DNA of 35,711 nt from the NCBI GenBank assembly GCA_013298075.1, contig JAAFJG010000048.1, positions 1 to 35,711 on the forward strand. The letters are read 5' to 3'. This DNA is from Cytophagales bacterium (GTDB lineage Bacteria > Bacteroidota > Bacteroidia > Cytophagales > Microscillaceae). The notes under the pieces were generated by a model, which ran no database searches, was not told where the DNA came from, and was given only the letters and a program-made list of their open reading frames with translations. Shown one piece after another: positions 15,112 through 20,463 of the stretch (position 1 is the first letter of the stretch; each line of letters starts with the position of its first letter). The position numbers and the translations under genes are program-made.

Positions 15112-15144
15112 TTGTATAATTTTATAATTTTTTGAGTAATTTTG
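15112..15144 (+). promoter_or_regulatory. Promoter of the restriction-modification module
   Basis: TTG (15112-15114), 22-nt spacer and TAATTTTG (15137-15144), matching the Bacteroidota consensus. Transcription would start near 15150, which excludes the upstream TTG at 15132 as start codon and supports ATG 15180. Confidence 0.6.
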
Positions 15145-15179
15145 CAAAAAATATCTATTTAATATTTAACATTAAAAAA

Positions 15180-17549
15180 ATGGAATCTTCAAAGATTATA
15201 ACAAAATACCAAAACAGCGGAAAAGAAATTTTTGCACCTTTAAAAGATAAATTTCTTATTGCTTCTCCCGAAGAAATTGTAAGACAAAATTTTATTTGTC
15301 ATCTTGTCAATGAATATGGTTATAATCTTAACCAAATGGAACAAGAAATGCAGGTTTCTAATTCTTCACGTGGACAAGGCAGGGCAAGGGCTGATATTGT
15401 GATTTGGAGAAATGAACAAGAACGCAAAGACAAAAAAAATGCTTTTATTGTAGTGGAATGTAAAGCAGAAAAAATAACCGTGAGAAAAGAAGATTATTTT
15501 CAAGGTTCTAATTATGCAACGTGGGCAAGAGCAAAGTTTTTTATTACAAGCAATGAAAAAGAAACTAAGTTTTTTAAAGTTTTAGAAGAAAAATTACCAC
15601 TTGATATTGAGGAAATCATAGATATTCCACAAGCAAAAGATGCTGAAAATGAAAAAGAAATTAATAAATTACTTGCTCAACTCAAAAAGTTTGAACGTGA
15701 TGAATTTCAAAAATTGCTTTTTGCTTGCCACGACATTATCCGAAATAATGATAAACTTTCGCCTGAAATGGCTTTTGATGAAATTTCAAAAGTACTTTTT
15801 ATGAAAATCCGTGAAGAACGCAAACAAAATAGCGTGTTTTCAAAAGATAGATTTTTGCAACTCAAAAAAACAAAAGAGGATTATGAAAATGATGTAATTG
15901 GTAAAAAAGATGATACCCCTTTTTATAAATATCTTTTTGAACAAACTAAAACCGAGTTTGCAAAAGATGAAATTTTTGTATCTACGGACACGCTCCGAAT
16001 TAGAGAAACAAGTTTTTTGCAAATCGTAGAAAAATTGCAAAAATATAACCTTTCTAATACTGATGATGATGTAAAAGGAATCGCATTTGAAGAGTTTTTA
16101 GGGAAAACTTTTAGAGGTGATTTAGGGCAATTTTTTACGCCTCGTACCCTTGTAGAATTTATAGTGGGTTTGTTGGATATTCAAGAAAATGAATTGGTTT
16201 GCGACCCTTGTTGTGGTACAGGTGGTTTTTTAATCAAGGCTTTTGAGTATGTGCGTGAGCAGATAGAAACAGATATTCAAAACGCCAAAGAAAACCTAAA
16301 AAATGAATTATTGCCTGATAATTTTGATGATTTATCCCAAAAAGAACAACAGAATATAAATGAAAAACTAAACAAAATTTTTGTAGAACTAAACAAAGAA
16401 TTAGAAAGCAACCAAAACGAAAGTAGGCTAAAACATTTGTCTTATAATTGTATTTTTGGCACTGACGCAGAACCTCGTTCTGCTCGCACTGCCAAAATGA
16501 ATATGATTATGCACGGTGATGGACATGGTGGCGTACATCATCATGATGGTCTAATAAATGTAAATGGTATTTTTGAAAATCGTTTTGATGTGATTATCAC
16601 CAATCCGCCTTTTGGCTCTTCTGTGTCCAAAGATTTGGAAATAATGGAACAAGATAAATTTACTGACCAAAATAAAATAGACTATTATATTCAACGTTAC
16701 GGAAACGACTATAATAATGCACTCAAACAAGTAAATGATAATATTGGTAAAAAAGTGCTTTCGTTGTTTGAAACTGGGGCAATGTCAGGACTTACCGAAG
16801 TCCTTTTTGTAGAACGTTGCCTTAATCTATTGCGACAAGGTGGAAGAATGGGCATTGTGTTGCCCGAAGGCTTTTTGAATGGTGCTAATCTTCAAAAAAT
16901 AAGGGACTTTGTGGAAAGCAAAGCCAAAATAATTGCTATTGTATCTGTACCGCAAGAAGTTTTTATCTCTGCTGGTGCAAGCGTAAAATCAAGTCTTGTT
17001 TTCTTAAAAAAATTTACACAAGAAGAAGAAACTAATTACAAACGAATCACCCAAAAAGTAACGCTTGAAATAAAAACTAAATATCAACCTGAAATCACAG
17101 AAAAAGAAAAAATACATTTGAATATTTGGCACGAAATCCAATACAAAAGAGATTATATCAAAGATGTAAAAAGCATAAAAGCCAATAAATTTGAAAAAGA
17201 TTTGCAAATATCTTCTACCAATGAGAAAATTGCAGAACTTCAAAAAGAACACAAAGAAGCAAAAATTTCTTTTGATATTTGGAAAAAAGAACTCGATGCA
17301 CAAATACAAACCGAAATAAAACAAGAAATCAAAAATAGATTTTCTTATGAATTTCCTATTATTCAGGCAGAAAGTGCGGGTATCAACAGCATAGGACAAA
17401 AATCACAAAATGATTTGTTGGAAGTAAAAAATGAATTTGCAGCATATAGAAAACTTAATAATCTCTGGACAAGTCATACCATAAAGTATGATTATACGCT
17501 TGACGAAAATCAAAACCTTGTAAAAACACACGAAAATATAAATTTTTAG
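15180..17549 (+). CDS. Fused PD-(D/E)XK nuclease / N6-adenine DNA methylase (R-M subunit)
   Basis: 789 aa from ATG 15180. Residues about 25-160 form an HsdR_N-like nuclease domain with Asp72 in RADIVIW and Glu93-x-Lys95 in IVVECKAEK, the PD-(D/E)XK arrangement. A helical linker follows, then an HsdM-type methylase: FTPRTLVEFIV, SAM-binding motif I at Asp342 (DPCCGTGGFL), and motif IV NPPF at 475-478, the pattern of N6-adenine methylases. A coiled-coil tail comes last. No DEAD/helicase translocase is present here or downstream, so the locus resembles BcgI-like or type IIG enzymes, where one chain cuts and methylates and a separate S chain gives specificity. The specificity frame begins past a suspected -1 frameshift site at the stop codon. 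Domain calls are from visible motifs; cleavage behaviour is inference. Confidence 0.88.
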   Translation: MESSKIITKYQNSGKEIFAPLKDKFLIASPEEIVRQNFICHLVNEYGYNLNQMEQEMQVSNSSRGQGRARADIVIWRNEQERKDKKNAFIVVECKAEKITVRKEDYFQGSNYATWARAKFFITSNEKETKFFKVLEEKLPLDIEEIIDIPQAKDAENEKEINKLLAQLKKFERDEFQKLLFACHDIIRNNDKLSPEMAFDEISKVLFMKIREERKQNSVFSKDRFLQLKKTKEDYENDVIGKKDDTPFYKYLFEQTKTEFAKDEIFVSTDTLRIRETSFLQIVEKLQKYNLSNTDDDVKGIAFEEFLGKTFRGDLGQFFTPRTLVEFIVGLLDIQENELVCDPCCGTGGFLIKAFEYVREQIETDIQNAKENLKNELLPDNFDDLSQKEQQNINEKLNKIFVELNKELESNQNESRLKHLSYNCIFGTDAEPRSARTAKMNMIMHGDGHGGVHHHDGLINVNGIFENRFDVIITNPPFGSSVSKDLEIMEQDKFTDQNKIDYYIQRYGNDYNNALKQVNDNIGKKVLSLFETGAMSGLTEVLFVERCLNLLRQGGRMGIVLPEGFLNGANLQKIRDFVESKAKIIAIVSVPQEVFISAGASVKSSLVFLKKFTQEEETNYKRITQKVTLEIKTKYQPEITEKEKIHLNIWHEIQYKRDYIKDVKSIKANKFEKDLQISSTNEKIAELQKEHKEAKISFDIWKKELDAQIQTEIKQEIKNRFSYEFPIIQAESAGINSIGQKSQNDLLEVKNEFAAYRKLNNLWTSHTIKYDYTLDENQNLVKTHENINF

Positions 17550-17586
17550 ATAGCCTTTCCGAACCAACTGCCACATACGGAAAGGC
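17540..17586 (+). promoter_or_regulatory. Candidate programmed -1 ribosomal frameshift site
   Basis: At the end of the methylase frame the heptamer A-AAT-TTT (17540-17546) immediately precedes TAG. After a 6-nt spacer, GCCTTTCCG (17553-17561) pairs perfectly with CGGAAAGGC (17578-17586) over a 16-nt loop. Slipping back one base continues into the specificity frame (F-LDSLSEPTATYGK...). Alternatively the hairpin is an attenuator or a chance structure. Confidence 0.45.
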
Positions 17587-17602
17587 ACTTTTATCAAAGT
17601 GG

Positions 17603-18940
17603 TTGAAGTTTGTTTTTTCAAAAGATTTATACAATTGGAGTGTGCATTATGTAAACAACAAAGAAAATAATTATTCTGAAAAATACGAACTTGTAAAAAT
17701 AGGTAGTTTTTTAAAAAGAAATAAAACATCTATTGAAGTACAAGATAATGAAACATACAAACGTGTTACTATTCGCATAAATGGAGGCGGAATAAGTGTA
17801 AGAGATACACTTTTAGGAAATGAAATAGGCACTAAAAATCAATTTAGAATTAGTAAAAACCAATTTTTGTTGTCAAAAATAGATGCTCGTAATGGTGCTT
17901 TTGGAGTTGTGCCTGAAAGTTGTGATAATGCCATTATTACAGGTAATTTTTGGACTTTTGATGTAGATTTTAACCAATTAAACTCTACTTATTTGATGCT
18001 TTTTACTTCTACAAAACATTTTCAACATATAAGCCAAACTGCAAGTACAGGAACAACTAATCGTAATTATTTGCAAGAAAATTTATTTTTGCAAATGCAA
18101 ATTCCCCTTCCATCTCTCAATATTCAAAACGAATTAGTAAGCGAATATCAACGCAAAATAAACCAAGCCCAAGAAGCAGAAAATAAAGCAAAAGAACTTG
18201 AAAAAGGTATAGAAACATACTTATTGGAAGCATTAGGCATAGAAATGCAAACCAAAGAAGAACCAAAACCAGATGCGAAATATAAGTATTTGAAAATGGT
18301 GAATTCTAAGGATATTTCAAGATGGGATATTGATTTTCTAATAAATGGTATGAATGAAGTTATTAGTAATAAATTTGAATCAAAAAAAATCATGCACATT
18401 TGTAAAATAGGAAGTGGTGGCACTCCTTCACGATTGAGACAAGATTATTTTGGTGGTAATATTCCTTGGGTAAAAACAGGGGAAGTAAGAGAAACTATTA
18501 TTTTTGACACAGAAGAAAAAATTACAGAAACAGGTTTACAAAATAGTAGTGCTAAAATTTTCCCTAATGGAAGTTTAATTATAGCAATGTATGGTGCAAC
18601 CGCAGGGAGAACAGCAAAATTAGGAATAAATGCAAGTACAAACCAAGCCTGTGCAGTTTTGCATGAAATTGATAATTTTCAGGTTGATACTAATTTTTTG
18701 TGGTTATATTTACAAAGCCAAGTTGAAAATTTTAAAAAAATCTCTGCTGGAAGCGCTCAACCGAATCTAAATGCACAAAAAGTTTCAAATTATAAAATTC
18801 CTTTACCACCTCTTTCTATTCAAAATGAAATAGTACATTATATTTCAGAACAAAAAATGGAGATAAAACGATTAAAAGAATTGGCTATTTCGTTGCGTAA
18901 TAGTGCAAAAGTGGATTTTGAAGTGGAAATATTTAATTAA
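17603..18940 (+). CDS. hsdS: DNA specificity subunit of the restriction-modification module
   Basis: Reads as 445 aa if translation starts at TTG 17603; there is no in-frame ATG before the middle of the first recognition domain, and the frame stays open upstream to 17504. Two target-recognition domains each end in a conserved helix: IPLPSLNIQNELVSEYQRKI (centre) and IPLPPLSIQNEIVHYISEQK (end). The second domain opens with CKIGSGGTPSR...GNIPWVKTGEV, a classic HsdS signature. Each domain reads half of a bipartite DNA site. It may be made as a fusion with the R-M subunit through the 17540-17586 signal (about 1250 aa in total) or from the TTG by coupling. Confidence 0.88.
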   Translation: MKFVFSKDLYNWSVHYVNNKENNYSEKYELVKIGSFLKRNKTSIEVQDNETYKRVTIRINGGGISVRDTLLGNEIGTKNQFRISKNQFLLSKIDARNGAFGVVPESCDNAIITGNFWTFDVDFNQLNSTYLMLFTSTKHFQHISQTASTGTTNRNYLQENLFLQMQIPLPSLNIQNELVSEYQRKINQAQEAENKAKELEKGIETYLLEALGIEMQTKEEPKPDAKYKYLKMVNSKDISRWDIDFLINGMNEVISNKFESKKIMHICKIGSGGTPSRLRQDYFGGNIPWVKTGEVRETIIFDTEEKITETGLQNSSAKIFPNGSLIIAMYGATAGRTAKLGINASTNQACAVLHEIDNFQVDTNFLWLYLQSQVENFKKISAGSAQPNLNAQKVSNYKIPLPPLSIQNEIVHYISEQKMEIKRLKELAISLRNSAKVDFEVEIFN

Positions 18941-18947
18941 AAAACTT

Positions 18948-19175
18948 ATGAACCAAAAAAGAAGAAGAGAAATCTCTAACATCATTCAAGAATTGGAAGA
19001 AATTAGAGATAGCGTAGAAAAATTGCAAACAGAAGAGGAAGAGTCTTTATCAAAACTACCTGATAGTTTGCAAGATTCAGAAAAAGGAATGATTATGCAA
19101 GAGTGTATTGAAGCAATAACATACGCTCTACATAATATAGAAGAAAGTATCCGTTATTTAGACAAAATTGATTAA
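18948..19175 (+). CDS. Small coiled-coil protein
   Basis: 75 aa from ATG 18948, 7 nt after the specificity stop. Charged heptad-like sequence (MNQKRRREISNIIQELEEI..., CIEAITYALHNIEESIRYL). It recalls a family of short acidic coiled-coil proteins often met in phages and plasmids (N-terminal KRRKEI, central 'MPENLQGSE'-like motif; here LPDSLQDSE). The role is unknown; co-transcription with the module is likely from the spacing. Confidence 0.7.
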   Translation: MNQKRRREISNIIQELEEIRDSVEKLQTEEEESLSKLPDSLQDSEKGMIMQECIEAITYALHNIEESIRYLDKID

Positions 19176-19388: not shown

Positions 19389-19426
19389 TTTATAATGTAA
19401 TTTTTTTGGGTGAATAAATTGGTTTT
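19389..19426. repeat. 38-bp perfect direct repeat, right copy
   Basis: Identical to 15042-15079. It ends inside the stop codon of the convergent LRR gene, so the module boundary coincides with the 3' end of that gene. Confidence 0.9.
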
Positions 19427-20463
19427 TATTGATTTTCTAAATATGCTTTTACTTCTTTAAAGACATTTTGACCTTTATTAAAAATCTCTTCGGGAATGTT
19501 TTGAATTGGATTTTCGTATAACTGAAGATAATATAATTTTGGAAAATGATTTAGAAAATCCAGAGAAATATTTGAAATTTGATTTTTTCCTACTTCTAAA
19601 ATTCTAAAATTTGGTGAGAATTGTAAAGAAAAAGTATCTGAAATTTGATTATCTTCTAAACTCAAATATACTAAATTCGTTAAATTTTGTAAAAAAGAAA
19701 TATCTGAAATTTGATTATGTTCTAGATACAAATCTGTTAAATTCGTTAGGTTTTGTAAAAAAGAAATATCGAAAATCTGATTCTCGCCTAAATTCAAATA
19801 TGTTAAATTCATTAAATTTTGTAAAGGAGAAATATCTGATATTTGATTGCTACCTAAATACAAACGTGTTAAATTTTTTAAATCTTTTAAGAGAGAAATA
19901 TCTGATACTTGATTCCAACTTAAATCGAAACTTATTAAATTTTTTAAATATTTTAAACAAGAAATATCTGATACTTGATTAGAAGTTAAGCCTAAATTTG
20001 TCAATTTTATTAAATTTTTTAAGCAAGAAATATCTGAAATTTGATTATTCCATAAAAATAAAGTTTCTAAATTTTTCAAATCTTTTAAATAAGAAATATC
20101 TAAGACTTTATTAGTTCGCAAATCTAAAAGTATCAAATTTTTCAGGTCTTTTAAGCACGAAATATCTGAAATTTGATTATCCCATAAATGTAAATGTGTC
20201 AATTTTGTTAAATCTTTTAACCAAGAAATATCCGAAATTTGATTGGAAGTCAAATCTAAATGTGTCAATTTTGTTAAATCTTTCAACCAAGAAATATCCG
20301 AAATTTTACAATCACATAAATTCAGTCCAATAACATTATTTTGATTATCGAGTACATAAGTTTGACCGCTATACAAATTAAAAATATTATCAATATTATC
20401 GATTTCTACTAATCTAATATAGAATTTTTCTTGTAATGTAAGAATTTGTGAAGATTTAGACAT
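19426..20463 (-). CDS. Cytoplasmic leucine-rich-repeat protein, SDS22-like
   Basis: 345 aa with about twelve 22-residue repeats (pattern LTHLDLTSNQISDISWLKDL), residues about 45-310, capped by NIPEEIFNKGQNVFKEVKAY. The 22-residue period with DIS..L..L is the SDS22/internalin-type LRR, usually a protein-binding surface. There is no signal peptide (MSKSSQILTLQEKFYI), so it probably acts inside the cell. The repeats are also similar at DNA level (66-bp period), implying recent expansion. The partner is unknown. Confidence 0.85.
   Translation of the reverse strand: MSKSSQILTLQEKFYIRLVEIDNIDNIFNLYSGQTYVLDNQNNVIGLNLCDCKISDISWLKDLTKLTHLDLTSNQISDISWLKDLTKLTHLHLWDNQISDISCLKDLKNLILLDLRTNKVLDISYLKDLKNLETLFLWNNQISDISCLKNLIKLTNLGLTSNQVSDISCLKYLKNLISFDLSWNQVSDISLLKDLKNLTRLYLGSNQISDISPLQNLMNLTYLNLGENQIFDISFLQNLTNLTDLYLEHNQISDISFLQNLTNLVYLSLEDNQISDTFSLQFSPNFRILEVGKNQISNISLDFLNHFPKLYYLQLYENPIQNIPEEIFNKGQNVFKEVKAYLENQ

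Follow-up and report, generated by a model that had tools for sequence, protein, structure and literature searches.

The question raised by this locus is how a specificity (S) subunit comes to be translated from a reading frame that has no ATG of its own. The window, by which we mean the whole stretch of 35,711 nucleotides that was analysed, contains an R-M gene (15132..17549, + strand) encoding an HSDR_N_2 nuclease and an N6 adenine methylase in one chain (Pfam HSDR_N_2 and N6_Mtase), which is 805 aa long from TTG 15132 or 789 aa from ATG 15180 and closes with the codons ATA AAT TTT TAG (stop at 17547-17549; chain end ...ENINF). The S reading frame (17546..18940, + strand, 464 aa) includes two Methylase_S stretches; by Pfam, a nuclease and an N6 methylase in one chain together with a two-TRD S make up the architecture of type IIB enzymes of the BcgI/BsaXI kind. 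This frame lies in -1 relative to R-M and, just as the original prediction had it, is open back through the methylase stop (from 17504) with no ATG near the junction; the first ATG/GTG/TTG, and the sole one near the junction able to start a free S, is TTG 17603..17605 (+ strand). We argue that programmed -1 ribosomal frameshifting very probably yields both R-M and R-M-S from one mRNA, a proposal of the original prediction that the conserved slip site and spacer, the covarying stem and the -1 position of S described below all support. Elsewhere in the window, S is followed only by an ORF of 90 aa (18903-19175) that matches no known family, and the minus strand beside the R-M locus (19426-20463) encodes a 345-aa protein with leucine-rich-repeat-like SDIS..LKNL units.

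The three sequence parts of such a signal are found in the window exactly where they had been predicted. The slip site A_AAT_TTT (17540..17546, + strand, 0-frame codons AAT TTT) is followed by the 6-nt spacer TAGATA (17547..17552, +), which contains the R-M stop, and then by a stem (stem 1) whose 5' arm GCCTTTCCG (17553..17561, +) begins three bases 3' of TAG and forms nine Watson-Crick pairs with the 3' arm CGGAAAGGC (17578..17586, +) across a loop of 16 nt (17562..17577, +). Folded alone, this hairpin reaches -12.8 kcal/mol (z -4.4), its stem has a p of 0.001 against shuffles, and its pattern occurs as a single copy in the 4.7-Mb genome assembly to which the window belongs, so that it is not a dispersed repeat. 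According to the sections consulted of PMC4066793, the H_HH.U_UU.Y class, which includes AAATTTT, is among the most efficient slip motifs in E. coli, U_UU.U takes third place among the tetramers, stimulators as a rule begin 5-8 nt 3' of the slip site, and A_AA.U_UU.U is absent from the 18 motifs picked there for a gene search. Inspection by eye of the sequence 5' of the slip site in the window showed no Shine-Dalgarno-like stimulator. Membership in a known RNA family was rejected, given that the one Rfam match (E 0.88) falls far under its gathering score, and so was readthrough of the TAG, after which the 0 frame meets another stop within 18 codons.

R-M/S junctions were compared in relatives drawn from a contig scan, of which the best 80 of 202 were kept, so that the counts of element-bearing loci below are not frequencies; whole genomes, viral contigs and two plasmid loci supplied the others. 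The 119 loci gave 109 distinct junctions once 10 duplicates were dropped (L063 and L014 are one locus, as are L128 and L082), and five later additions brought the number to 114. Those whose R-M is at least 45% identical to that of the window (98 of 114) entered the junction counts, and 93 of the 98 have a readable long downstream frame (L034, L042, L048, L056 and L069 were dropped). Eighty-six of these have an ordinary layout: in 85 the region -75..+60 around the R-M stop contains an ATG, and one (L086) has a GTG instead. A few of the 86 downstream frames are by eye evidently not S (for example L015, L040, L044, L074 and L094). Since the downstream frame of ordinary junctions is itself -1 in 43 cases (+1 in 28 and 0 in 15), the -1 frame alone is weak evidence. 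In the seven other loci (the window, L020, L014, L091, L082, L129 and L087), however, S lies in -1 and has no ATG, and every one of them carries TTTT, exactly 6 nt and a stem, an arrangement seen at none of the 90 other R-M stops tested. With a strong stem required, the same arrangement is seen at 7 of 97 R-M stops, compared with 33 of the 55,566 codon boundaries within R-M genes. Six of the seven were singled out by their starts before the junctions were read side by side, and L129 was added by a subsequent R-M search. The refuting case named in the original prediction, homologues whose S starts with ATG and which lack the heptamer, does exist, as the 85 ordinary junctions show, but theirs is a different layout, and all loci with a -1 S and no ATG carry the element. 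The concern that AT-rich DNA makes such heptamers easy to meet by chance was justified to the extent that other X_XXY_YYZ heptamers sit at the stops of five other junctions (L029, L038, L055, L080 and L098), though none of these has the spacer-and-stem arrangement. TTTTTA at the R-M stop occurs in 6 of the 98 junctions, namely five element loci and L056, which reads AAATTTT TAA in a contig that ends where the stem would form.

Among viral contigs, at least 14 loci were examined and the element was absent from those listed; an S-protein search of viral contigs gave no match. Plasmid records matched in 257 (R-M) and 992 (S) cases, two loci of which were examined, and 62 phage records matched. 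Six viral-contig R-M loci (L107, L108, L109, L110, L112 and L115) have a downstream frame in -1 that starts at -61, a long overlap with the R-M end that is unlike the layout in the window.

Conservation of heptamer, spacer and hairpin in homologous loci, which the original prediction had named as a check, turned out in its favour: six relatives found through R-M and one found through an RNA model (L138, see below) share the slip site, the 6-nt spacer, the stem and S in -1. AAATTTT is present in the window and in five of the seven relatives (L020, L014, L082, L129 and L138), as well as in L056, and L091 and L087 have the T_TTT tetramer only; slip motifs of programmed -1 frameshift signals, X_XXY_YYZ or Z_ZZN in the 0 frame, are found accordingly. 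The distance from TTTT to the stem is exactly 6 nt in 8 of 8 loci. As the stop is placed one codon later in L082, L129 and L138 and the heptamer still lies 6 nt from the stem, the distance that is kept is that from slip site to structure and not that from stop to structure, as would follow from a structure acting on ribosomes positioned at the slip site. In the alignment of the elements, the gaps between the stop and the conserved start of S are multiples of 3.

Stem 1 itself is found unaided by RNAalifold, which returns the same 9-bp stem from 7 sequences, and on four of five measures the values observed in these 7 were reached by 0 to 7 of 500 shuffles. With L138 included, 69 of 72 cells are paired (95.8%), compensatory changes are seen in 6 of 9 pairs, and none of 500 shuffles was as high on four measures, as against 128 of 500 on the fifth (further pair types); partners slid out of register scored lower than the true ones on all measures. 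A covarying structure at 6 nt falls within the 5-8 nt downstream at which such signals place theirs. Single hairpins have folding z values of -2.3 to -4.4, and, scored as perfect helices, the element stems rank 1, 2, 4, 5, 8 and 22 among 108 junctions, the last being the weakest stem, that of L082 (9 bp with one mismatch; shuffle p 0.12).

A covariance model of the element, run without protein information, gave eight rows at E <=7e-8 over 96 loci (936 kb), the next best being at E 3.1; these eight are the duplicate L063 and the seven loci used to build the model, whose match follows from that. L056 gave no match with this model. Over 177 genomes of the order it returned the window, L014 and one new site, L138 (G047:C306:1885-1958, E 1.2e-4), which lies exactly between a diverged methylase-like gene (433 aa, lacking the nuclease domain and with NPPF replaced by APPF) and a -1 S gene. 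The junction there reads GAAAATTTTCATTGA, then GCCTTTCTG...CAGAAAGGC, and a TTG that overlaps the TGA is a possible S start. In 171 genomes of the class, the window was retrieved together with two weak sites, L139 (E 0.0077) and L140 (E 0.07), both rejected because they are not at R-M genes and such values are expected by chance in 171 genomes. In the same contig as L138, an AAA_15/AAA_21 ATPase gene follows the methylase-like gene and the S joined to it by the element (L141:598-4543). It is surprising that a frameshift element should persist on a methylase that may be inactive.

The structure was originally described as a hairpin. Stem 1 is indeed kept in the relatives, but a second pairing that gives a pseudoknot instead is likely. 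In the window, its 5' arm would be CCAC (17571-17574) or CAACTGC (17565-17571) in the loop of stem 1, and its 3' arm would be GTGGTTG (17599..17605) in the K-W-L codons, all on the + strand, so that the latter overlaps TTG 17603. In 8 of 8 loci, pairing is possible between the stem 1 loop and a stretch starting 4-12 nt 3' of the stem (5 to 7 pairs), and it is perfect in L138 (GCCACTT/AAGTGGC), with a combined p of 1.7e-6 against shuffles and single p values of 0.002 to 0.19. The motif G[TC]GG occupies the place of the 3' arm in 6 of 6 scored element loci as against 1 of 77 others, a comparison open to composition bias because the equivalent position of ordinary genes is close to their start codon; L091 escaped the motif filter and was instead read by eye. 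When the arms of stem 2 were swapped between 7 loci, the swapped arms paired equally well (p 0.62), a negative outcome that counts against the second pairing.

The main alternative holds that S is a separate protein reinitiated at TTG 17603 or at another non-ATG codon, with the hairpin doing no more than tuning the coupling. Coupled translation of M and S is, after all, the rule at the ordinary junctions, a start at TTG 17603 would retain most of the window's conserved S start, and a TTG is also near in L129 (+38/+41), L091 (-28/+41) and L138 (overlapping the stop), so that non-ATG start candidates remain in four loci. ATG is nevertheless absent near the junction in all seven element-bearing -1 loci, in which the conserved coding frame with the S domains has no such start of its own, and the first ATG/GTG/TTG of L082 (+74), L020 (+83), L087 (+155) and L014 (+161) would cut into or past the conserved start of S. 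Between the stop and the conserved [WY]LK, the -1 frames of the window and L087 are devoid of ATG, GTG, TTG, CTG, ATA, ATC and ATT, save for TTG 17603 inside [WY]LK itself. The position of a start is not conserved, whereas that of TTTT, 6 nt and stem is. Furthermore, a strong stem immediately before or over a start codon would hinder initiation. We consider reinitiation unlikely for these reasons, though several observations do weigh against frameshifting: the slip site is reduced to the tetramer in L091 and L087, A_AA.U_UU.U is not among the 18 motifs mentioned above, rival starts exist in the window, L129, L091 and L138, the stem of L082 has a p of only 0.12, the element-bearing R-M proteins do not form one clade, and L014 is without the nuclease motif and has an S frame of only 185 codons.

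The other alternatives appear far less probable. That the change of frame is a fresh mutation, a pseudogene or an assembly error would be in keeping with the fragmented assemblies from which the window and some relatives come and with the decay of L014, and yet the -1 layout and the covarying stem recur in seven loci plus L138, in different genomes, and S is full-length in the window, L020, L091, L082, L129 and L138; we regard this as very improbable. Much the same standing, in our opinion, belongs to slippage of RNA polymerase, rather than of the ribosome, on the run of 4-5 T: L082, L129 and L138 have only 4 T, the cases of polymerase slippage known to us need longer runs than that, and the conserved 6-nt distance to a downstream stem better fits a ribosome. 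Finally, the inverted repeat could be a DNA element (a recombination site, a dispersed palindrome or a terminator) and not an mRNA signal, for which one may cite the exchange of junctions implied by element-bearing R-M proteins that are not one clade. This we find hardly credible, in that the repeat is a single copy in its own genome, varies in sequence with its pairing kept, holds a position fixed to the slip site and has no T run 3' of the stem.

Programmed frameshifting would operate as follows. Ribosomes ending the R-M chain would read AAT TTT just 5' of the TAG and be stalled at the slip site by the downstream structure (hairpin or pseudoknot, at 6 nt); a fraction of them would have their tRNAs re-pair one base back (AAA TTT) and would proceed with translation in the S frame (TTA GAT AGC ..., with TTA 17546-17548 as the first new codon). 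The predicted products are free R-M (...ENINF) of 789 (805) aa and, beside it, R-M-S (...ENINF-LDSLSEPTATYGK...), with the junction ...ENINF-LDSLSEPTATYGKALLSK-S and a length of 1253 aa from ATG 15180 or 1269 aa from TTG 15132. The size of about 1250 aa foreseen by the original prediction is thereby borne out on paper, though the domain layout points to type IIB (BcgI, BsaXI, TstI/AloI) and not, as had been suggested, to type IIG in general. AlphaFold prediction of S from 4 sequences gave pLDDT <50 for residues 1-42 and is therefore uninformative on the linker. Most likely, one R-M-S would join one free R-M, so that the complex would hold a single S for two R-M, as in the (RM)2S of type IIB enzymes; one mRNA may plausibly supply this ratio for type IIB-like enzymes.

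The element-bearing R-M proteins are spread over the tree (5 label changes), and a single vertical origin among R-M proteins was rejected (AU p 7.7e-12; 8 rows, L056 included, among 53) for a group that was named before that tree but after a first tree had been seen. Such a distribution would be compatible with joint exchange of the element and the S end, or with repeated loss. The ECK motif, which we take to be the nuclease motif, is present in 5 of 6 aligned element-bearing R-M proteins and lost in L014, where the S frame stops at 185 codons, close to the end of the contig (L014:1480-4289); this copy may be decaying. In L091 (4914-7658) the R-M chain contains an inserted DUF559 domain, and next to it is a peptide, LTPNPSPQAERG, that resembles a translated palindromic repeat. 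The Spirosomaceae-type element loci (L082:8682-10797 and L142:1345-3545) have two more genes after S, the first of which in L082 encodes an AAA_21 ATPase.

To our knowledge, few cellular genes of bacteria have a conserved frameshift signal (dnaX, prfB and copA are examples). The -1 signals of bacterial dnaX and of IS1/IS3-family transposases are alike in having a slip motif, a spacer of about 6 nt, a hairpin or pseudoknot and two products per mRNA (PMC4066793 and PMC3711429, in the sections consulted), but the signal described here sits between a restriction-methylase and its specificity subunit, with AAATTTT or T_TTT as slip motif and the stop at it or one codon after. RM.BsaXI is a sequence match (E 6e-21), and BcgI and BsaXI likewise have nuclease and N6 methylase in one chain and a two-TRD S, BsaXI assembling as (RM)2S (PMC11997821, consulted in part); their S, however, is a separate chain, whereas here S would seem to be joined to part of the R-M chains. 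TstI and AloI carry R, M and S in a single chain of about 1250 aa (PMC4027205, consulted in part), but all of their chains are fused, TstI being a homotetramer, whereas free R-M is expected here beside R-M-S; in the window a stop and a change of frame separate R-M from S, and no R-M open frame in 110 loci exceeds 919 aa, the length of the longest. In the engineered EcoKI HsdM-HsdS fusion ('Type IMS'), M is joined to S and the enzyme restricts in vivo, yet in vitro it still needed free HsdM, suggesting one M and one MS; that fusion is laboratory-made, and natural EcoKI has a 1-nt overlap, coupled initiation and a separate HsdR (PMC3510504, consulted in part). The MADS defence system (MAD2/MAD5) was rejected as a match, at 297 bits against a cut-off of 720 and 57.8 against 400 (NCBIfam).

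Nor did full-text searches of the literature, whose scope excluded supplements and most subscription journals, find a frameshift signal between R-M and S, in agreement with the earlier statement that no example was known. Word searches found none in the consulted text of PMC3711429, PMC5009743 (first 300,000 of 475,107 characters), PMC10885494, PMC4066793, PMC3510504 and PMC6158711. The 146 recoding clusters of PMC3711429 are given in its supplements, outside this search, and PMC10885494, in its consulted part, lists methyltransferases among the phage genes with a known frameshift but gives no detail.

We give even weight, for and against, to the broader idea that these loci represent a restriction enzyme family in which frameshifting sets the subunit ratio. 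S would then exist only covalently joined to R-M, each R-M-S would recruit one free R-M, the slip rate would fix the fraction of enzyme that recognises DNA, and the element would travel with S between diverged R-M lineages, even to the methylase-like gene of L138 (APPF). Gene callers are likely to mis-start such S genes or to call them broken, and we infer that these systems may be under-counted. If frameshifting does take place, it would constitute a new means of coordinating S, R-M and the ratio between them. It would also supply a naturally occurring form that is intermediate between restriction enzymes of two chains and those of one, a stage that was engineered in EcoKI (PMC3510504, in the part consulted).
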